The position numbers were made by a program, and so were the translations under genes. The notes under the pieces were generated by a model, which made no database searches, had not been told where the DNA came from, and saw nothing but the letters and a program-made list of their open reading frames with translations. A stretch of DNA of 64,000 bases from Dethiobacter sp. (GTDB taxonomy: Bacteria; Bacillota; Dethiobacteria; Dethiobacterales; Dethiobacteraceae). The first letter of the stretch is position 1, and each line of letters begins with the position of its first letter. Positions 1,558-13,049 of this stretch are shown in pieces. The stretch spans positions 1 through 64,000 of the forward strand of contig JAGXRN010000018.1 in NCBI GenBank assembly GCA_018335875.1. Reading direction: 5' to 3'.

Positions 1558-2871
1558 ATGTACGCAAAATACTGGGATGAAAAATTGGAAACCATGTCAA
1601 GGGAACAGATACGGGACATGCAGCTAAAACTCCTTAAAGAAACGCTGCATCTCGCTTCCAGTCAATCACCCTACTACAGAAAAAGCTTTGACGAACACAG
1701 TATAAGTGCCCAAGACTTACGGCGCCTGGATGACATCAGTAAATTTCCCTTCATCAACAAAGTCACGCTTCGCCAGAGACAGGAGGAAACTCCGCCCTTC
1801 GGAGACCTGGTCTGCGTGCCGGAAGAAAAAATGGTCTATCTTTCCGCCTCCAGCGGCTCCACCGGCGTGCCTACCGCTTCTCCTTTCACTTGCGGCGATT
1901 TTGACGATTGGCAGGACTATGAGGCTCGCCTCTTCTGGTCTTCGGGCATGAGACCCACTGACCGTTACTGCCATGCTCTCAATTTCACTCTGTTCGTGGG
2001 CGGCCCCGATGTTATCGGCGCCCAGAAGCTGGGAGCGCTGTGCATCTGGGCAGGCACCATACCGTCAGAGCGCCTGCTCACGATTTTTCAACAATGGGGT
2101 ATCACCGTTACCTGGACCACGCCATCTTATGCCTGGTACCTTGGAGAAACCGCTCTCAGCATGGGGATTGACCCTGCAAAAGACCTGAACATCAAAAAGA
2201 TTTTTGTTGCCGGCGAACCGGGCGGCTCAATTCCGGAGACGCGGCAGCGCATTGAAGAACTGTGGGGAGCTGATCTTTATGATTATTACGGCCTCTCCGA
2301 CATATTCGGCGCCTGCGCCGGTATGTGTGAGGCAAGGGACGGCCTTCACTGGGCGGAAGACCATATCCTGGTAGAAGTGATTGACCCCGACACCGGGGAA
2401 GAACTGCCCGAAGGTGAGCGAGGAGAACTGGTCCTCACTTCCCTGAAAAAGAGCGCGCGCCCGCTTATTCGTTTCCGTACCGGGGATATTGTCTCTTATA
2501 CAACAGAACGTTGTGACTGCGGCCGCACACACCTGCGCCTGCACGGTATTCACGGACGCCTCGACGACATGCTGATTATCCGTGGGGTTAACGTTTTTCC
2601 CAGTGACATCGAGGTCGTGGCGCGTAAAAATTCCAACCTGACCGGTGAATTCCGCCTGGTAGTCACAGAAGAAAAGCACCTGGCCGTCCTTACTGTGGAA
2701 GTTGAGCACAGCGCCGGATGTAAAGTTGACCTCAAAACATTGGAAGACCAGGTTGTCTCCAGCTGCTACAACACAGTAGGTATCCGGCCAAAAGTCCGTA
2801 TCCTGCCCCCTGACACGCTGCCGCGGGCAACCCATAAAGCAAAACGGGTTGTAGACGAGCGAGCGAAGTAA
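1558..2871 (+). CDS. Phenylacetate-CoA ligase-like (PaaK-family) AMP-forming acyl-CoA ligase
   Basis: SASSGSTGVPT, YYGLSDIFG, RFRTGDIV, GRLDDMLIIRGVNVFPSDIE motifs; RBS aaaggaggt. Confidence 0.85.
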   Translation: MYAKYWDEKLETMSREQIRDMQLKLLKETLHLASSQSPYYRKSFDEHSISAQDLRRLDDISKFPFINKVTLRQRQEETPPFGDLVCVPEEKMVYLSASSGSTGVPTASPFTCGDFDDWQDYEARLFWSSGMRPTDRYCHALNFTLFVGGPDVIGAQKLGALCIWAGTIPSERLLTIFQQWGITVTWTTPSYAWYLGETALSMGIDPAKDLNIKKIFVAGEPGGSIPETRQRIEELWGADLYDYYGLSDIFGACAGMCEARDGLHWAEDHILVEVIDPDTGEELPEGERGELVLTSLKKSARPLIRFRTGDIVSYTTERCDCGRTHLRLHGIHGRLDDMLIIRGVNVFPSDIEVVARKNSNLTGEFRLVVTEEKHLAVLTVEVEHSAGCKVDLKTLEDQVVSSCYNTVGIRPKVRILPPDTLPRATHKAKRVVDERAK

Positions 2872-3018: not shown

Positions 3019-4395
3019 ATGTCTAAATACGCTCTCAAGGGCAAGCGGCCGTATGGGGCTGAGCAGCCTTATACCGGCGGTAAACTTAAGTTTCGTATTC
3101 CTTTTATTCATTATCCTTTTGAGTTTCCTGATGCCGTCCAGGGCGCGATACTATGCGTGGTGCCCATGGGGATTACGGCCGCCATGACCGAGGTGCTGGG
3201 CATTCCTTTTGAAATCGCCATTGCCATGGTAATTCTTAATAACTTTATGTATCTTCTCCATACCCATTTCGGCGACCCTGCGGTGGCAGGGTGGATTACA
3301 CCCGGTATCCCTCTTTACATCGCTTTTCTGACCACATTTGAACCGGGTCTGGCAAGAATTCACGCCTTGATCGCCCTGCAGCTTACCGTCGGTCTTATAT
3401 TCCTTGTCCTGGGAGTCACGGGGCTGGCAAAAAAAGTTGTGGACGCGGTGCCAATGTCCGTGAAAGCCGGCATCCTGCTGGGGGCAGCCTTTGCCTCTTT
3501 AATGGGCGAATTCAGGGCAGGCGGTCGCGTCTTCCAGTTCCCCATTGCCCTGATCCTGGGTCTTTTTGTTTCTTTCTTCATGCTTTTCTCCAACTCCACG
3601 GCAGAACTGCGTAAACGTTACAGCATTTTTCGCTTTATCGCGGCCTACGGCATAGCCATTCCTTTTCTTCTCTCTTATGTGGTTGGCATTATAGTCGGCG
3701 AAGTTGGTGTACCTTCAATCCAATGGAGCTTCACACCAATGCCGTTGGGTCAGATGGTATCCACCCTCTCGCCTTTCAGTATCGGCTTCCCCTCCTTCAG
3801 CGTCTTTGTGGCCGCCCTGCCCCTGGCTTTTGCGGCTTACATCATTGCCTTTGGTGACACACTGGTGGCAGCCGGATTGCTTAAAGCCGCTGACGAGAAA
3901 CGCCAGGACGAAAAAGTGATCTGGGAACCCAATCGTAACCATATAATCACCGCAGTCCGCAACCTTTCCGAGGGTTTTCTGTTCCCTTACCTGCCACTGG
4001 CCGGTCCCCAGTGGGCAGGCGGCCAGGCCCTGGTTGCGAACCGCTACATGAACAGTACTGAAAAGGAAGAGGAAACATACTGGGGAGGTGCCACCTCGAT
4101 TTTCTGGGGGATGAGCATTGCACTGCTGCTCGGCCCGCTGGTAACTTTCTTCCGTCCCGGTCTGGCCATCGGACTTTCGCTGACATTGCTGCTTCAGGGC
4201 TACCTTTGCGGTTACCTGGCCATGTCCATGGTCAAAGACAACCTTCAGCGCGGCATTGCCATGGTGATGGGCGTCATGATTGCCACCCAGGGCGCTGCCT
4301 GGGGATTGGGCATCGGCCTTGGTCTTTACCTCGCGCTTGAACGCAACTGGTTTAAAGATGTGCCTGAAGAAGCTGAAGTAAAAGCCCAGGCATAA
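3019..4395 (+). CDS. Polytopic membrane permease (xanthine/uracil or sulfate-permease-like fold)
   Basis: 458 aa with many hydrophobic segments; RBS aaggagg; family placement uncertain. Confidence 0.6.
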   Translation: MSKYALKGKRPYGAEQPYTGGKLKFRIPFIHYPFEFPDAVQGAILCVVPMGITAAMTEVLGIPFEIAIAMVILNNFMYLLHTHFGDPAVAGWITPGIPLYIAFLTTFEPGLARIHALIALQLTVGLIFLVLGVTGLAKKVVDAVPMSVKAGILLGAAFASLMGEFRAGGRVFQFPIALILGLFVSFFMLFSNSTAELRKRYSIFRFIAAYGIAIPFLLSYVVGIIVGEVGVPSIQWSFTPMPLGQMVSTLSPFSIGFPSFSVFVAALPLAFAAYIIAFGDTLVAAGLLKAADEKRQDEKVIWEPNRNHIITAVRNLSEGFLFPYLPLAGPQWAGGQALVANRYMNSTEKEEETYWGGATSIFWGMSIALLLGPLVTFFRPGLAIGLSLTLLLQGYLCGYLAMSMVKDNLQRGIAMVMGVMIATQGAAWGLGIGLGLYLALERNWFKDVPEEAEVKAQA

Positions 4396-4646: not shown

Positions 4647-4663
4647 TTGGCAGCAAACTTGCA
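4647..4663 (+). promoter_or_regulatory. Sigma-54 (-24/-12) promoter TTGGCAGCAAACTTGCA
   Basis: GG(4649-4650)-N10-GC(4661-4662). Confidence 0.75.
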
Positions 4664-4737: not shown

Positions 4738-5883
4738 ATGGATTTTAGGTTTAACGAAGAACAGGAGATGTTGCGAAAAGCAGCCCGTGAATTCGCCGAG
4801 GAAGTTCTTGCACCCAGGGCAGAGGAAATTGAGGAAAACGATGAAATCCCTACCGAGATTTTCAAAGAAATGGCCGAAAGAGATTTTTTTGCGGTAACCG
4901 TCCCCGAAGAATACGGCGGCTTGGGGCTGGGCCACGTGGCCCGCATGATTATCCTGGAAGAAATCAGCCGTGTATCGGCTGCTGTAGCCATGATGCTGCA
5001 GGTTTTCCACCTGGGGATCCATCCCCTCATAACTTTCGGTAGTGAAGAACAGAAACAAAAATATCTGCCTGACCTGGCAGCGGGCAAAATATTGGCCACA
5101 GTTGCCATTACGGAGGCCACAGGCGGGTCAGACCCAACCGGTATTCAGACTACGGCTCGTCCGGATGGGGACGGCTATATCCTGAACGGGCGCAAAGTAT
5201 TCATCACCGGCGCCAAAGTTGCTGACATCGCCGTTATACTGGCCAAAATGAATGATGACCCGGGAGTCTTCAGCGCTTTTATCGCTGAGAAGGGGATGCA
5301 GGGCTACCGCAGCGGGCGCACTGAAGTTAAAATGGGACTTAAAGGCAGCGATACCGGCGATATTATCCTTGAAGACTGCCGTATCCCAAAAGAAAACCTA
5401 CTGGGCAACCCGGGAGCGGGCCTTAAGATTTCACTGAACGCCGTGGGAGAGGTGGGGCGCGCCGGCATGACAGGCTGCGCCATGGGACTCATAACCGCCT
5501 GCATCGAGGCTTCTGTCAGTTTTGCCGGCCAGCGGGTGCTCGGCGGCAAGCCCATCAGCAAACTGCAGGGCATCCAGTGGAAACTGGCCGAGATGTTCGC
5601 CGACCTTGAGGCCAGCCGTCTTATGGGCTATCGGGCAGCCGCCTTAAAAGACGCGGGACAGCCCTGTGATGCGGAGTTTGCCACATCCAAGTACTTCTCG
5701 TGTGAGGCAGCCGTGCGTGTGGCTAAACTGGCATGCGATATCCACGGTGCGTACGGCTACATGAAAGAATACCCTGTCCAGCGTTATTTGCGTGATGCGC
5801 ACCTGATGATACCCTCGGCAGGCACTTCCGACATTATGAAACTTGTCATGGCCAGGACAGTCATGAAGAGATACGCCGTCTAG
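4738..5883 (+). CDS. Acyl-CoA dehydrogenase
   Basis: MDFRFNEEQEMLRKAAREFAEE...AITEATGGSDPTGIQTTA...DIHGAYGYMKEYPVQRYLRDA. Confidence 0.95.
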   Translation: MDFRFNEEQEMLRKAAREFAEEVLAPRAEEIEENDEIPTEIFKEMAERDFFAVTVPEEYGGLGLGHVARMIILEEISRVSAAVAMMLQVFHLGIHPLITFGSEEQKQKYLPDLAAGKILATVAITEATGGSDPTGIQTTARPDGDGYILNGRKVFITGAKVADIAVILAKMNDDPGVFSAFIAEKGMQGYRSGRTEVKMGLKGSDTGDIILEDCRIPKENLLGNPGAGLKISLNAVGEVGRAGMTGCAMGLITACIEASVSFAGQRVLGGKPISKLQGIQWKLAEMFADLEASRLMGYRAAALKDAGQPCDAEFATSKYFSCEAAVRVAKLACDIHGAYGYMKEYPVQRYLRDAHLMIPSAGTSDIMKLVMARTVMKRYAV

Positions 5884-5914: not shown

Positions 5915-6721
5915 ATGAGCTTAAGGATAGCCGTGCTGCTTAAATCCGTACCTGACCCTAAGCTTTGGCACAGAGTAACCATCGATCCCGTCACCAGGAC
6001 GCTGCGCAAGGAAGGTATCCCCCGGGTAATCAGCCCGCTTGACCGCAATGCGCTGGAGGCAGCGGCATCGCTGAAAGAAAAGCACGGCGGCGAAGTCACT
6101 GTTATCTGCATGGGATCATCCGGTGCAAAAGAAAATTTGCGGGAAGCTCTGGCTCTCGGTGCCGATAGGGCAGTGTTCCTTTCCGGCGGGACTTTTGGTG
6201 GGGCCGATTCCCTGGCTACCGCCAGGGCTTTGTCCGCCGCATTGCAAAAACTTGGCATTCCTGACCTTATCTTTTGCGGCGCTGTCAGTTACTACGGCAG
6301 CACAGGTCAGGTGGGCCCGCAGGTTGCACAAATGCTTGGCATCAATCATTTCAGTTCCGCTAGAAAGTTTGTATACGATGGAAATATGCTGACAGTGGAG
6401 TCTGTTACCGACGGAGGTGTCCTGGTGGCCAGAGGGCGGCTCCCCCTGCTGCTGACTGTGCTGAGGGAGGCAAACAAGCCGCGCGGCTTGCGCCTCTCAG
6501 AGACTGTCAAAGCGCGCAGGAAAGAAATACTGGAGTGGTCTCCCGCGGACCTGCCTGTCTCCGGCGCGCAGCTTGGCCTTGAAGGTTCAGGCACACGGAT
6601 GATAGACCTGCTCCCTCCCACACCGGGAAAAGACGCTGAAATTATTGAGGGCGAACCTGAGGTCGTGGCACGGGAGATTTTAAGGAAAATAAGCGTCTGG
6701 ACCTGCGGGACAGGAGGTTAA
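5915..6721 (+). CDS. etfB: Electron transfer flavoprotein, beta subunit
   Basis: VLLKSVPDPK...VTVICMGSSGAKENLREALALGADRAVFL. Confidence 0.9.
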   Translation: MSLRIAVLLKSVPDPKLWHRVTIDPVTRTLRKEGIPRVISPLDRNALEAAASLKEKHGGEVTVICMGSSGAKENLREALALGADRAVFLSGGTFGGADSLATARALSAALQKLGIPDLIFCGAVSYYGSTGQVGPQVAQMLGINHFSSARKFVYDGNMLTVESVTDGGVLVARGRLPLLLTVLREANKPRGLRLSETVKARRKEILEWSPADLPVSGAQLGLEGSGTRMIDLLPPTPGKDAEIIEGEPEVVAREILRKISVWTCGTGG

Positions 6722-6725
6722 TTAA

Positions 6726-7712
6726 ATGATCGCACAAAATAATGTCTGGGTTTATGCGCAGGAGACCCGCGGCGGGATTGCCGGTGTGACTCTTGAACTT
6801 CTGGGTGAAGGCCGCCGCCTTGCTGACCGGTTGTCTGTTAAACTGACCGCAGTACTCTGCGGAGAAAAAGTAGCAGGCCTTACCGGTTGCTTATTCGCAG
6901 CCGGCGCCGACACTGTCATTCTTGTGGAAAATCCCTCCCTTCATTACTATAATGCAGCCTGTTTTGGGCATTGCCTCGAAGGTCTGGCCCGGCGCTATCA
7001 TCCACAGATCTTTCTCTTCGGCGCTACGCAACAAGGAAAAGATCTGGCCGCCGTTACAGCAGCGCGTTTAAATGCAGGGCTGACCGCACACTGTACTGCT
7101 TTCGAGCTGGATGACGGAGGCCGCCTGAGGCAGATGGTACCCGCCTTTGGCGGCAGGTGTGTCTTTGTCTCCACCGGCTTTCCACAGATGGCCACCGTCG
7201 CCCCCGGCGTATTCCAAAGACCTGACTTGGACTGGGAACGCCGCGGAGAAGTGGTGCGTGAGCAATTCACCGGGGATGGCAACACAGCCGTCAAAGTGCT
7301 GAATTTTTTACCGTCACCCCGGGCCGAAAAGGGATTGGCGGATGCTGCTGTGATTGTGGCCGCCGGCGCCGGTGTGGGCGGTTCTGAAGGCTATGCATTG
7401 GTCGAAGAGCTGGCCGCTCTCCTGAATGGCGTTATGGGGGCAACCCGTCCCGCTGTCGATGAAGGGTGGGCTCTCGAAGAACAGATGATAGGCCAAAGCG
7501 GCTGCAACGTCCATCCCAAACTCTATATCGCCGTTGGTGTCTCAGGAGACCAGCTTCATCTGAGCGGGGTAAAAGATCCTGACGTTTTCATAGCAATCAA
7601 TAAGGACCGCCAGGCAAATATTTTTCGTCATGCACACTACGGAGTTATCGCCGACTTTAAGCTGATAATTCCAAGATTGATCGATTTGCTCAAAAGCCGA
7701 ACACATATATAA
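6726..7712 (+). CDS. etfA: Electron transfer flavoprotein, alpha subunit
   Basis: C-terminal FAD domain AAGAGVGGSEGYALVEELAALL...IGQSGCNVHPKLYIAVGVSGDQLHLSGVKDPDVFIAINKD. Confidence 0.9.
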   Translation: MIAQNNVWVYAQETRGGIAGVTLELLGEGRRLADRLSVKLTAVLCGEKVAGLTGCLFAAGADTVILVENPSLHYYNAACFGHCLEGLARRYHPQIFLFGATQQGKDLAAVTAARLNAGLTAHCTAFELDDGGRLRQMVPAFGGRCVFVSTGFPQMATVAPGVFQRPDLDWERRGEVVREQFTGDGNTAVKVLNFLPSPRAEKGLADAAVIVAAGAGVGGSEGYALVEELAALLNGVMGATRPAVDEGWALEEQMIGQSGCNVHPKLYIAVGVSGDQLHLSGVKDPDVFIAINKDRQANIFRHAHYGVIADFKLIIPRLIDLLKSRTHI

Positions 7713-7804: not shown

Positions 7805-9907
7805 GTGACTGTAAGAAGTGCCCTGATGGACACCACCGTAAGAGATGTAATGAGTGAAAACCCGGTTACTCTTTCACCAAACAGCACGATAAGGGATGCA
7901 GGGGAAATTTTCCGCAGGTTTTCCATCGACGGCATCCCGGTAGTCGATACCGAACACCTTGTAATGGGCATGTATACCAAGTCGCACATGATCAACTCGC
8001 TGATGGAAGGCAAAAATTGTGAATCACCCATTGGAGAGTACATGGCCCGTGATGTGTTGTGCATAAAGCCGGAGCGTTCGGTCTACGATATCTGTCTGCT
8101 TCCTGTAAAGAGACTGCCTGTGGTGGACGGGGACGGCAAACTGGTGGGCATCATCACCAAGACCGATTTGATAAAAGTCTTTTCCGCCGACGTCAGGTTT
8201 ATCAAGGAGCGTCTGGCGACAATTATCGAATCTACCCACAATGGAATAGTTGCCATTGACGCCAACGGCAGTGTCTTCACTTTTAACTCGGCTGCTGAAA
8301 AAATACTGGAAATTCCGGCTAAAGAGGTCATCGGCCGCTTCATCAATGATCTTCCTGCCGACATCGGCCTCTTCAGTGTCCTCACCAGCGCCAGGCCGGA
8401 AGCAGGAGAACAGGTCACCGTGGGTAAAAAAACACTTTTGATCAACAGGACACCCATACTTAAAGACAGTGAAGTTATCGGCGCTGTCGGCGTTTTTCAG
8501 GACATATCGGAAGTCGATAAAATCTCCAGGCAGATGGATTCGTTTAAACGACTGAGCTGCGAACTCCAGGCCATAATCGAATCATCTTATGACGGTATCT
8601 GCGTAACCGAGGCAGACGGTAAAATTGAGCATCTTAATTCAGCTTATGAGCGGCTGATAGGTATCTGCAGGGAAGAACTTATCGGGAAGCCTTTCGGTGA
8701 AGACCTTACTGACATGGTTAAGCAACAGAAAAAAGCTGTGACACTGGTGCAAAAGACTGCCACAGGCAAGCAGGTCCTCATTACAGGCAACCCTCTTCTC
8801 GATGGGGACAGCCGGCGCTTGCTCAAGATTGTGACCAACGTGAGAGACATCACCGAATTAAGCCGCCTCAAGCAGGAACTCGACAACTCCAGGGAACTGC
8901 AGGAAAGATACAGCAGCGAGCTGGACTATCTCCGTGGCGAACACACCCGGCATGACAATATTGTAGCCAAACACCCCCGGATGAAAAATGTGATTGAGCA
9001 GGCCATGCGCGCTGCCGCTTTTGACTCCACTGTACTGCTGCTCGGTGAAACAGGTGTGGGTAAAGAGCTGTTTTCCAAGCTCATTCACGGTAATTCAGAG
9101 CGTCGGGACGGTCCTTTTATTAAAGTAAACTGTTCAGCAATCCCGGAGCAGTTGATAGAATCTGAACTGTTCGGCTATGCGCCCGGCGCCTTTACCGGGG
9201 CAAACAAAAACGGTAAACCGGGTATGTTCGAGCTGGCGTACAAAGGCACAATTTTCCTTGATGAAATCGCTGAACTGCCGCTGTCCCTCCAGGCCAAGCT
9301 GCTGCGCGTCCTGCAAGAACGTGAAATCTTAAAGGTGGGCGGGGTAAACCCGCAGAAAGTTGATGTCCGTATTATCGCCGCTACCAACAAGGACCTGGAA
9401 ATAATGGTGGAAGGCGGAAAATTCCGCAATGACCTTTTTTATCGGCTGAATGTAATCCCGCTGACTATTCCTCCCCTGCGTGAGCATAAGGAGGATATAC
9501 CTCTTTTAATCTACACTTTTATGAAAAAGTTCAACAGCCAGTGGGGAATCGATAAAAAGCTGACACAGGCTGTTGTCGATTCCCTCATGGACTATGACTG
9601 GCCCGGCAATATCCGTGAACTGGAACACATACTGGAGAGAATACTGGTAATGTCAAAAGATGAAACAATCAGGGTTGAAGACCTTCCTAAATCTTTACGG
9701 GGAAACGGAGTTTTTAGCAGCGCGCAGGAATTTGCGGAAAAAAACATTAAAATTCTGCCCCTCAGGGAAGCCGTGGATGTACTGGAAAGAAACCTGATCG
9801 AACGCGCCATCGAGCAGTGTGGCAGTATCCGCAAAGCTGCAAAAGTGCTGGAGGTTGACCCATCAACAGTGGTGCGAAAAATCGAACGCCTCAACGCCAG
9901 GTACTAG
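7805..9907 (+). CDS. Sigma-54-dependent transcriptional activator with tandem CBS, two PAS, AAA+ and Fis-type HTH domains
   Basis: CBS pair at N-terminus; LLLGETGVGKELFSKLIH, ESELFGYAPGAFTGA, GTIFLDEI; HTH GSIRKAAKVLEVDPSTVVRKIERL; GTG start. Confidence 0.95.
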   Translation: MTVRSALMDTTVRDVMSENPVTLSPNSTIRDAGEIFRRFSIDGIPVVDTEHLVMGMYTKSHMINSLMEGKNCESPIGEYMARDVLCIKPERSVYDICLLPVKRLPVVDGDGKLVGIITKTDLIKVFSADVRFIKERLATIIESTHNGIVAIDANGSVFTFNSAAEKILEIPAKEVIGRFINDLPADIGLFSVLTSARPEAGEQVTVGKKTLLINRTPILKDSEVIGAVGVFQDISEVDKISRQMDSFKRLSCELQAIIESSYDGICVTEADGKIEHLNSAYERLIGICREELIGKPFGEDLTDMVKQQKKAVTLVQKTATGKQVLITGNPLLDGDSRRLLKIVTNVRDITELSRLKQELDNSRELQERYSSELDYLRGEHTRHDNIVAKHPRMKNVIEQAMRAAAFDSTVLLLGETGVGKELFSKLIHGNSERRDGPFIKVNCSAIPEQLIESELFGYAPGAFTGANKNGKPGMFELAYKGTIFLDEIAELPLSLQAKLLRVLQEREILKVGGVNPQKVDVRIIAATNKDLEIMVEGGKFRNDLFYRLNVIPLTIPPLREHKEDIPLLIYTFMKKFNSQWGIDKKLTQAVVDSLMDYDWPGNIRELEHILERILVMSKDETIRVEDLPKSLRGNGVFSSAQEFAEKNIKILPLREAVDVLERNLIERAIEQCGSIRKAAKVLEVDPSTVVRKIERLNARY

Positions 9908-9924: not shown

Positions 9925-10095
9925 ATGGAGAGATATTTTTATATTGCCCTTATCTTTATTGGATTTCCGCTGATCGCCGCTTTCCTGTCTCAGCGGCTGG
10001 CACGCCTTGGCGTCAACAAAGGCGTCAGCAAATTTATTGTATCCACTCTCGGAGTGATTGCTTTTTCGTTTTTCTGGCTGGTTTTCCGCCGGTAG
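9925..10095 (+). CDS. Small (56 aa) membrane protein, hypothetical
   Basis: MERYFYIALIFIGFPLIAAFLSQRLARLGVNKGVSKFIVSTLGVIAFSFFWLVFRR*; two hydrophobic segments; aggaggtg 5' of ATG; not in ORF track. Confidence 0.65.
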   Translation: MERYFYIALIFIGFPLIAAFLSQRLARLGVNKGVSKFIVSTLGVIAFSFFWLVFRR

Positions 10096-10139
10096 CATGC
10101 AGCGAATATGCCGCAATAAATGGGAGGAGGAGTTTTACA

Positions 10140-11591
10140 ATGCCCGTTAAATCAAGAGAGCAGTACCTGGAATCTTTACGGCAGATGAGGCCTAATATTT
10201 ACAAGTTCGGGGAGCTAATCGGGGACGTTGTCTCTCACCCTGCAACCCGGCTCGTGGTTGAAAGTCACGCCCGCGCCTTTGACGCTGCACACACCCCTGA
10301 AAAAGAGGCCGTGTTTACCACAACATCCTCTTTTACAGGGGATAGGATTATGCGTTTCAACAGCCTGATGCAAAACCGCGATGATGTCATCGCCAATGCG
10401 GTGATGAAACGCCAGTGCTACAGGCAGACCGGCACCTGTGCCGGGGCACTCTGTGTGGGCTGGAACGCCATGAACGTGATGTGGGCGGTAACATATGAAA
10501 TGGACAGGGACCTTGGCACAAACTACAGAGAACGACTGGAAAAATGGATACTTCGAGCAGAGGCTAACAGCCTGGCGGTGGCCGGCGCCCTCACCGATGC
10601 CAAGGGCGACCGCAGTAAGACGCCTTCACAGCAGGCCAACCGCGACAGTAATGTCCATATAACGGAGCGCCGCAAGGACGGCATTGTGGTGAGGGGAGCC
10701 AAGGCGATGATTGCCGGCGCTGCTGCCGCCAACGAAATCTTTGTCCTCCCCGGCAGCGGCTACCGTGAACCGGACAGTGATTCTTCCGTAGCCTTTACGG
10801 TACCCCGGGACACGCCGGGATTGACACTGGTTGAGTGCCGGCGCCCCAGCGACTGCCGCGAACTGGAAGACGGTTTCGACAGCCCGGTTGAAACTGGCAC
10901 TACACAGGCCTATCTTCTTTTTGACGATGTTTTCGTCCCCAATGAACGTGTGTTCATGGCGGGCGAGTACAGATATTCAGGCAATATCATCAGGTATTTC
11001 ACTGCCAACTACCGTGCCTGTATCGGTGGTTGCGTCACCGGCCAGGGCGACGTGATGGTGGGCGCAGGAGTGCTGATGGCTCGCGCCAACGGCTTGCCGG
11101 CCAAGACATTCAGGGACAAGTTCGTCCAGATGTCAGTCAACAACGAGACCACATTCGGCATGGGCATCGGCGCCATCGCCATGGGTTACGCCCATCCTTC
11201 AGGCGTCTGGTTCGCCAATGACCTGATGTCCCATGTAAACAAAATCCACGTGGCCACGCTGCCATATGAAGTGAAAAGGCTGCTGCAGGAAATATGCGGC
11301 GGACTGGTGGAAACCGGCTGCTTCCCTTCAGCAAAGGACTTCAACCACGAAGAGTACGGCGCCTTTATCCAATCCTGCCTTAAAGCAGGCAATGTGTCCG
11401 CGGAAACACGGGCCAGGGCCGCCCGCCTGGCAGAATGGCTCACCATCGGCGCCGGCGTACCCGGCTGCATGCACGGCGGCGGGTCTCCCGACGGCGCCAG
11501 ACTGGTAGTCAGGGCCAACACTCCCCTCGATGACTATGCGGCACTGGCACGTGCACTGGCTGGAATTGACGAGGAAGTCTCCGAACCATAA
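10140..11591 (+). CDS. 4-hydroxybutyryl-CoA dehydratase / 4-hydroxyphenylacetate 3-hydroxylase family protein
   Basis: SREQYLESLRQMRPNIYKFGE, GDRSKTPSQQ, VFDDVF(V/I)PNERVFM-type motif, MHGGGSPDGARL; RBS gggaggagg; true start 10140 rather than track start 9819. Confidence 0.85.
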   Translation: MPVKSREQYLESLRQMRPNIYKFGELIGDVVSHPATRLVVESHARAFDAAHTPEKEAVFTTTSSFTGDRIMRFNSLMQNRDDVIANAVMKRQCYRQTGTCAGALCVGWNAMNVMWAVTYEMDRDLGTNYRERLEKWILRAEANSLAVAGALTDAKGDRSKTPSQQANRDSNVHITERRKDGIVVRGAKAMIAGAAAANEIFVLPGSGYREPDSDSSVAFTVPRDTPGLTLVECRRPSDCRELEDGFDSPVETGTTQAYLLFDDVFVPNERVFMAGEYRYSGNIIRYFTANYRACIGGCVTGQGDVMVGAGVLMARANGLPAKTFRDKFVQMSVNNETTFGMGIGAIAMGYAHPSGVWFANDLMSHVNKIHVATLPYEVKRLLQEICGGLVETGCFPSAKDFNHEEYGAFIQSCLKAGNVSAETRARAARLAEWLTIGAGVPGCMHGGGSPDGARLVVRANTPLDDYAALARALAGIDEEVSEP

Positions 11592-11876: not shown

Positions 11877-13049
11877 TCAGAATAAATTGTAATTTAGCTT
11901 AAGCCTTATAATTCTTTCCACACTCTCGTCGATTCTTTGTTCGCTCAAATCTCCTGCTTCAACCGCCTCATGAAGGGCGTCCAGAGCATCCTGCTGCAGC
12001 TTGTAAGTATGAGAAATCAGCAAAATGTCCGCTCCTGCTTTAACCGCCTCCAGGGCGGCTTCTTTTATGTCGTAATGTCTTGTGATGGCTCCCATTTCCA
12101 GGTCGTCAGTGATGATTACACCGTTAAATCCCAGTTCCTCGCGTAAAAGTCCTGTCAGTATAGCAGGCGCCAGCGTAGCCGGCCTGCCGCTTTCATCTAT
12201 CTTAGAATACCTGATATGGGCTGTCATTACAGCGTCTGCCCCGGCTTTTATTGCCTCTCTAAACGGTATCAGCTCAAAGCTGTCGAGACGCTCCCTGTCA
12301 TGATTCAGAACAGGCAGCACGTAATGTGAATCTGTGCTTGTGTCGCCGTGGCCGGGAAAATGCTTGATGACAGAAATTATGCCTTTATTTTGCAGGCCTG
12401 CCATCACCGCAACACCAAGCCGGGCTACAAGGCCGGGGTCTGCGCCAAAAGACCTGCTGCCAATGACAGTGTTTTGTGGATTGCTGTGAATGTCGAGCAC
12501 GGGCGCAAAATTCATATTGAAATCAAAAGAGGCAAGTTTTGACCCAATGGCTTGTCCGTTGGCAAAAGACAGCTCTGAGTCATTTTTTTTACCCAGTTCC
12601 CTGCTGGAAGGAAAGCGTGTATTTTCAGTGGGCAGCCTGGTAACAGTGCCGCCTTCTTCATCTACTGCTATAAAAAGAGGGAGCCTGTTCATACTGTTCA
12701 GCTCTTTGATAGATTTGGTCAAAGCTTCCAGTTGTGCACTGTCTTTAATATTTCTGCCAAAAAAGATTATTCCCCCGACATGGTTTTCAGTCACAAGTTT
12801 CTCTAAGGAGGCATCTATGAACGTATCATTAAACCCGATAATCACCATTTGGCCTATTTTTTCAGCCAGTGTCAGCTCAGAGAGCAATTCTTTAACCGGG
12901 TCTCTTCTTACAAATTCATCATTCTCTTCCCATATTTCCTCAAGCGGCAGCTTCTCTTTTTTATCCCCCGGGCCGGCGGCAGGAATTGTTTTACACCCGG
13001 CCACGGCTGCCGTTATTATTACCAGTATTAAAATCAGCAGCTTTCTCAT
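11877..13049 (-). CDS. GH3 beta-N-acetylhexosaminidase (NagZ-like) lipoprotein
   Basis: Lipobox ITAAVAGC; AVDEEGGTVTRL, KHFPGHGDTSTDSHYVLP, VIITDDLEMGAI. Confidence 0.9.
   Translation of the reverse strand: MRKLLILILVIITAAVAGCKTIPAAGPGDKKEKLPLEEIWEENDEFVRRDPVKELLSELTLAEKIGQMVIIGFNDTFIDASLEKLVTENHVGGIIFFGRNIKDSAQLEALTKSIKELNSMNRLPLFIAVDEEGGTVTRLPTENTRFPSSRELGKKNDSELSFANGQAIGSKLASFDFNMNFAPVLDIHSNPQNTVIGSRSFGADPGLVARLGVAVMAGLQNKGIISVIKHFPGHGDTSTDSHYVLPVLNHDRERLDSFELIPFREAIKAGADAVMTAHIRYSKIDESGRPATLAPAILTGLLREELGFNGVIITDDLEMGAITRHYDIKEAALEAVKAGADILLISHTYKLQQDALDALHEAVEAGDLSEQRIDESVERIIRLKLNYNLF
11908..12271. repeat. 364-bp direct repeat, right copy
   Basis: See 845-1208. Confidence 0.9.

Follow-up and report, generated by a model that had tools for sequence, protein, structure and literature searches.

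We found that a gene at positions 10140 to 11591 (+ strand) of the analysed stretch of Dethiobacter sp. DNA (the window; 64,000 nucleotides) encodes a 483-amino acid (aa) flavoprotein of the AbfD/HpaB family that is probably not a 4-hydroxybutyryl-CoA dehydratase. It would instead be a [4Fe-4S]/flavin acyl-CoA enzyme with three cluster cysteines, belonging to a distinct subfamily on the AbfD branch. AbfD is a radical dehydratase in which one ligand of the [4Fe-4S] cluster is, unusually, a histidine. The window protein has cluster-site cysteines at C100, C105 and C298, and Tyr291 lies at the position of this histidine (His292 of AbfD).

The open reading frame starting at ATG 10140 is real. GGGAGGAGG supplies a good ribosome-binding sequence ahead of this ATG, and a longer, GTG-started frame of 590 aa at the same gene is not the likely start because it overlaps the upstream regulator. 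Within the 483-aa translation, TGTCAGALCVGW carries C100 and C105, and the cluster loop reads C100-AGAL-C105 (codons at 10437..10454, +). The distal stretch YRACIGGC contains Y291, C294 and C298 (codons of Y291-RACIGG-C298-V299 at 11010..11036, +). An earlier note on this DNA had read the 483-aa frame with its C-x4-C and Y291-RACIGG-C298 motifs correctly, as the translation confirms.

The window protein matched the Pfam HpaB_N and HpaB domains at 268 and 130 bits, relative to gathering cut-offs of 35 and 25. Its best phmmer matches were the 4-hydroxybutyryl-CoA dehydratase of Nitrosopumilus maritimus (PDB 6vjr, 309 bits), which has the same fold, and AbfD of Clostridium aminobutyricum (1u8v, 306 bits), as compared with 92-98 bits at best for HpaB-type enzymes and 133 bits for NCBIfam HpaB-1 (cut-off 480). 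An AlphaFold2 model from 12 closely related sequences was unusable (pLDDT 44.5). A usable model (pLDDT 82.8, pTM 0.83) was obtained from 17 sequences after adding canonical AbfD and IMG/VR fragments, with residues 441-459 poorly predicted. Foldseek ranked 1u8v first for this model (TM 0.88, 35% identity), followed by 6vjr (TM 0.88), and placed HpaB-type enzymes below AbfD at TM of about 0.75-0.79. Judged by sequence and predicted fold, the protein is thus within the AbfD/HpaB superfamily and nearest to AbfD. No characterised close homologue was found, the nearest solved structures being ~35% identical.

The earlier note had also considered a cluster-free enzyme resembling an oxygenase. Such an HpaB-like oxygenase or hydroxylase would account for the Pfam domains and superfamily fold that the window protein has in common with the HpaB 4-hydroxyphenylacetate 3-monooxygenase family. 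However, HpaB is more distant than AbfD in sequence and fold and has no cluster cysteines in the aligned stretch, whereas these cysteines are invariant among close relatives of the window protein, whose identifiable carriers appear to be anaerobe-type genomes. The protein therefore did not group with HpaB-type flavin monooxygenases by either proximity or cysteine content, and we regard a cluster-free oxygenase as highly improbable.

Orthologues were gathered from GTDB contigs and sampled genomes, and 71 members of the resulting clade were aligned with 25 other family members (96 sequences). Both phmmer and MAFFT alignments matched C100 to AbfD C99, C105 to C103 with one extra loop residue, Tyr291 to H292 and C298 to C299. 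The first two of these correspondences hold because the conserved flanking motifs, T-[GA]-x-C on one side and C-V-G on the other, both fall into register once an additional residue is allowed in the clade. All three cysteines were invariant (71/71), and the extra residue between the first two was likewise found in every member (71/71), making it a clade-specific insertion. The earlier proposal of Ala at AbfD C99 came from an ungapped alignment and did not survive, since the insertion places C100 there in 71 of 71 members. Its proposal of Tyr at H292 was borne out: this position is Tyr in 70 of 71 members and Glu in the remaining one, the deepest-branching member (L077). Hence, the clade departs from the canonical Cys/Cys/His/Cys set. 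We rejected C294, another suggestion of the earlier note, as a required replacement ligand because fewer than half of the members have Cys there and more than half have Ala, Pro, Tyr or Thr.

Departure from AbfD extends well beyond the histidine to a joint loss of residues that the earlier note had not described. The K300 position is Val in all 71 members (V299 in the window protein), the Y296 position is Ile in 70 of 71 (Ile/Met across the clade), the E257 position is almost always Gln, the T190 position is Cys or Ala, the Q101 position is Gly or Ala, and the segment with E455 is absent throughout. We take Y296, K300 and E455 to be active-site residues of AbfD. In the 25 family members outside the clade, H292 and K300 were kept without exception. 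Relative to 1u8v, then, the window protein has a similar fold (TM 0.88), ~35% identity, the FAD-side motif TDxKGDR and three of the four cluster ligands (C99, C103 and C299). It differs in that H292 is replaced by Tyr, Y296 by Ile, K300 by Val, E257 by Gln and T190 by Cys/Ala, the E455 segment is deleted, C-x4-C stands in place of C-x3-C, and there is an additional invariant cysteine, C394. The N. maritimus enzyme has the canonical ligand and catalytic residues that the window protein is without.

These substitutions bear on whether the clade might still function as a 4-hydroxybutyryl-CoA dehydratase or vinylacetyl-CoA isomerase that tolerates them. The nearest solved relatives have this activity and TDxKGDR is kept, but H292, Y296, K300 and E455 are changed across the clade, and contig C42 of the window genome encodes a canonical AbfD that retains the four ligands. 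The presence of this canonical enzyme suggests that the window gene does something else, and exchange or deletion of the acid/base set (H292, Y296, K300, E455 and E257) argues against either activity. We consider residual AbfD activity very unlikely, and on sequence grounds the chemistry of the clade very probably differs from that of 4-hydroxybutyryl-CoA dehydratase. The clade-wide loss of H292 and catalytic residues upholds the idea in the earlier note of an AbfD homologue whose ligand set is non-canonical and whose substrate probably differs.

The window genome contains about nine AbfD/HpaB-family genes or fragments (contigs C42, C56, C61, C71, C79 and C81; L003-L008). One paralogue, on C71 (L008), is without the first cluster cysteine (GGIL-VHC) and represents another non-canonical ligand set. 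A second copy of the gene under study (L040:9165-10354; G000:C79:93164-94350) is 78-89% identical and adjoins another paralogue. Residues 72-159, including the C-x4-C loop, are missing from this copy, which is out of frame and reflects either a disrupted gene or an error in assembly.

Conservation of the cluster cysteines exceeds what would be expected by chance, as C100, C105, C298 and C394 are present in 68 of 68 full-length members at pairwise identities down to 47%, while cysteines 93, 233, 239, 294, 386 and 413 of the window protein are not conserved. C394 (codon 11319..11321, +) sits in an insertion found only in the clade (ETGC). C443 (codon 11466..11468, +; PGCMHGGG) is nearly invariant (66/68 full-length members) and lies beside the deleted AbfD E455 segment. 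These two residues raise the alternative of an all-cysteine [4Fe-4S] cluster with an electron transfer or structural role, in which C443 (or C394) takes the place of His292. Both are clade-specific, and C443 falls at the E455-S456 active-site loop of AbfD, beside a conserved HGGGSP motif. Yet two members have Thr at 443 with the rest of the site kept, and C394 follows a GG-x-x-T stretch, which in acyl-CoA dehydrogenases contacts the ADP part of FAD rather than the flavin ring. An all-cysteine cluster is in our estimation rather unlikely, but either residue could, as a fourth ligand, close the cluster site.

In a maximum-likelihood tree of a 51-row subset, the clade was monophyletic (100/100) on a stem of 1.06 changes, and its identity to other family members was at most 44%. 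Members came from Bacillota, Deltaproteobacteria-type metagenome-assembled genomes (MAGs) and Thermoplasmatota. Orthologues were present in 12 of 399 sampled genomes of the window's own phylum and, when the phylum of a Deltaproteobacteria-type MAG was sampled, in 15 of 345 genomes. They were most frequent in the phylum of a Thermoplasmatales MAG, sampled in the same way, where 46 of 243 genomes had a match at 52% identity or higher and three had only 33-39% matches. A literature search for a paper separating the clade from AbfD found none. By these sequence comparisons, the clade is a large, previously unseparated subfamily of AbfD-like enzymes in anaerobic bacteria and archaea.

The neighbourhood of the gene in the window points toward acyl-CoA metabolism. 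Directly upstream, all on the + strand, are genes for a 56-aa predicted membrane protein (9926..10096; MERYFYIALIF...), a sigma-54-dependent type regulator (7805..9907) with its best NCBIfam match to PrdR below cut-off, the electron transfer flavoprotein (ETF) subunits EtfA (6726..7712) and EtfB (5915..6721), which are both conserved neighbours, and an acyl-CoA dehydrogenase homologue without the catalytic Glu (4738..5883), having Ala at the position of MCAD E376 and Gly at the 255 position. Further upstream are a PurT-related permease (3019..4395), matching PDB 7tak, a membrane protein that we take to be a nucleobase transporter, and a PaaK-type AMP-forming CoA ligase (1558..2871) with PDB matches to PaaK and 2-hydroxyisobutyryl-CoA synthetase. 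Ahead of the dehydrogenase gene, a sigma-54 -24/-12-like site, TGGCAGCAAACTTGCA (4648..4663, +), is suggestive only, because such matches occur at chance frequency in the window. AcrC, AcrB and AcrA were among the best NCBIfam matches of the neighbours, but an acrylate pathway was dropped because these matches were unspecific and far below cut-offs, and because the archaeal dehydrogenase lies closest to that of PDB 5ol2.

Two other features of this region were observed. A similar small membrane reading frame precedes the orthologue in locus L047 (upstream of 8751), and the two genomes have a KFIVST/RFIVST motif in common. Separately, a 390-bp stretch at 819-1208 has 95% DNA identity on the same strand to 11882-12271, the start of a glycosidase-like gene region (11877-13049). 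The copies flank the whole cluster from the ligase through the permease, dehydrogenase and ETF to the AbfD-like gene, which suggests insertion or duplication.

Across 68 loci, EtfA, EtfB and acyl-CoA dehydrogenase each recurred in 33-34 (duplicates included), in both bacteria and archaea. About half of the loci had no dehydrogenase or ETF nearby, and ligase types differed. The bacterial dehydrogenases and one euryarchaeal dehydrogenase mostly had Ala or Gly where the catalytic Glu would be, together with Gly at the position of the alternative base, and these base-less enzymes formed one clade (100/100). Besides the window gene at 4738-5883, the group comprised those of L009, L010, L012-L014, L016-L018, L071, L075 and L145-L148. 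Archaeal dehydrogenases, together with bacterial L049 and L070, kept the Glu and were butyryl-CoA-dehydrogenase-like, the archaeal enzyme being nearest to that of PDB 5ol2, presumably the C. difficile butyryl-CoA dehydrogenase. The association with the clade thus exists for two dehydrogenase lineages, one bacterial and base-less, the other archaeal and butyryl-CoA-dehydrogenase-like. Loss of the Glu alone does not fix a reaction, as the residue is likewise missing from the dehydrogenases for long-chain acyl-CoA, isovaleryl-CoA and benzylmalonyl-CoA (PMC11659651).

The frequency of EtfB and EtfA among the neighbours, along with loss of the acid/base residues on which dehydration by AbfD depends, would also fit a redox enzyme rather than a lyase, that is, an iron-sulfur flavin acyl-CoA dehydrogenase or reductase exchanging electrons with the co-encoded ETF. 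Against this, most such loci include a dedicated acyl-CoA dehydrogenase, the usual partner of ETF, in the same cluster, and we know of no AbfD-branch enzyme that is a net oxidoreductase. We judge a redox enzyme to be unlikely.

Archaeal loci provided a further indication of substrate. Nine of them adjoin genes for the large and small subunits of a mutase, MeaB and a B12 adenosyltransferase. At the positions of Y89 and R207 of methylmalonyl-CoA mutase, this archaeal mutase carries Phe and Gln, a combination that we take to be the isobutyryl-CoA mutase signature, and its assignment as methylmalonyl-CoA mutase was rejected on this basis. Its nearest solved relative is the 2-hydroxyisobutyryl-CoA mutase HcmA, although it does not have the Ile and Asp that are specific to HcmA. 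The gene set of these nine loci equals that of a previously described isobutyryl-CoA mutase cluster (PMC5017805). Many of the bacterial mutases fetched were ordinary methylmalonyl-CoA mutases, and the case for a C4 substrate therefore comes mainly from the archaea.

Other common archaeal neighbours were an AMP-forming short-chain acyl-CoA synthetase and a DUF6125 protein. The latter (L124:8957-9493 and 15 other loci, nearly all archaeal) has a conserved cysteine-containing C-terminus, and a literature search on DUF6125 found no paper. A different operon type (L138, L140-L142 and L144) has aldehyde:ferredoxin oxidoreductase-family and AIR-synthase-like genes near the AbfD-like gene, as well as genes for a molybdopterin oxidoreductase, a CoA-transferase III and an acyl-CoA carboxyltransferase. 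Five Deltaproteobacteria-type loci have a homocysteine S-methyltransferase nearby, and DMSP/methionine catabolism, considered on this account, was set aside as not general.

Under the reading that we favour, a three-cysteine enzyme other than 4-hydroxybutyryl-CoA dehydratase, the protein would bind FAD and a putative [4Fe-4S] cluster on C100, C105 and C298. The fourth iron, held by His292 in AbfD, may be open to substrate or water, or may have Tyr291 (Glu in the one exception) as a weak oxygen ligand. An acyl-CoA substrate is likely because CoA ligases and ETF-linked dehydrogenases are encoded alongside: the nearby ligase would make the acyl-CoA, the ETF-linked acyl-CoA dehydrogenase would be the partner, and the enzyme itself probably catalyses a related reaction assisted by flavin and cluster, in which a short-chain acyl-CoA undergoes elimination, addition or isomerisation. 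In archaea, where the pathway appears to run through isobutyryl-/butyryl-CoA, the mutase makes a branched or straight C4 acyl-CoA our best guess. Interconversion of hydroxyisobutyryl-CoA and methacrylyl-CoA, followed by reduction and the mutase, would fit but is only one candidate.

Two working analogies are available for such chemistry. The (R)-2-hydroxyacyl-CoA dehydratases, such as 2-hydroxyglutaryl-CoA dehydratase, are established to have a three-cysteine [4Fe-4S] cluster whose open iron binds the substrate, with the thioester at the fourth iron (PMC8473912). They are of a different fold and family and have an ATP-dependent activator of their own; the window protein has the AbfD/HpaB fold rather than the HgdBC-type fold and is thus not a member. 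The gamma-butyrobetainyl-CoA TMA-lyase BbuA catalyses a C4 elimination that depends on flavin and acts on a CoA thioester, but it belongs to the acyl-CoA dehydrogenase family and shares about 10% identity or less with 4HBD (PMC8364193). More tentatively, the clade may constitute a class that combines the AbfD fold and flavin with an open-site, three-cysteine [4Fe-4S] cluster and converts an acyl-CoA in a way not described so far, perhaps by dehydrating or hydrating a branched C4 hydroxyacyl-CoA, as part of a previously unknown anaerobic pathway. This class would be coupled in bacteria to the base-less, ETF-linked acyl-CoA dehydrogenase and in Thermoplasmatota to isobutyryl-CoA mutase.

The AbfD gene is a marker for the 4-hydroxybutyrate carbon-fixation and fermentation pathways. 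Annotation by homology would probably mislabel the clade as 4-hydroxybutyryl-CoA dehydratase, because the cysteines and fold are kept while the histidine and catalytic residues are lost. Clade members should not be counted as this carbon-cycle marker enzyme. In the sampled Thermoplasmatota, the clade is far commoner than other close relatives. A marker inference of this kind has been drawn for 4-hydroxybutyryl-CoA dehydratase in a Thermoplasmatota lineage (PMC6461988), and the gene concerned is a possible, not an established, clade member. For the role of the histidine ligand, the clade provides a natural experiment, and it points to an unassigned anaerobic acyl-CoA pathway common to bacteria and archaea.
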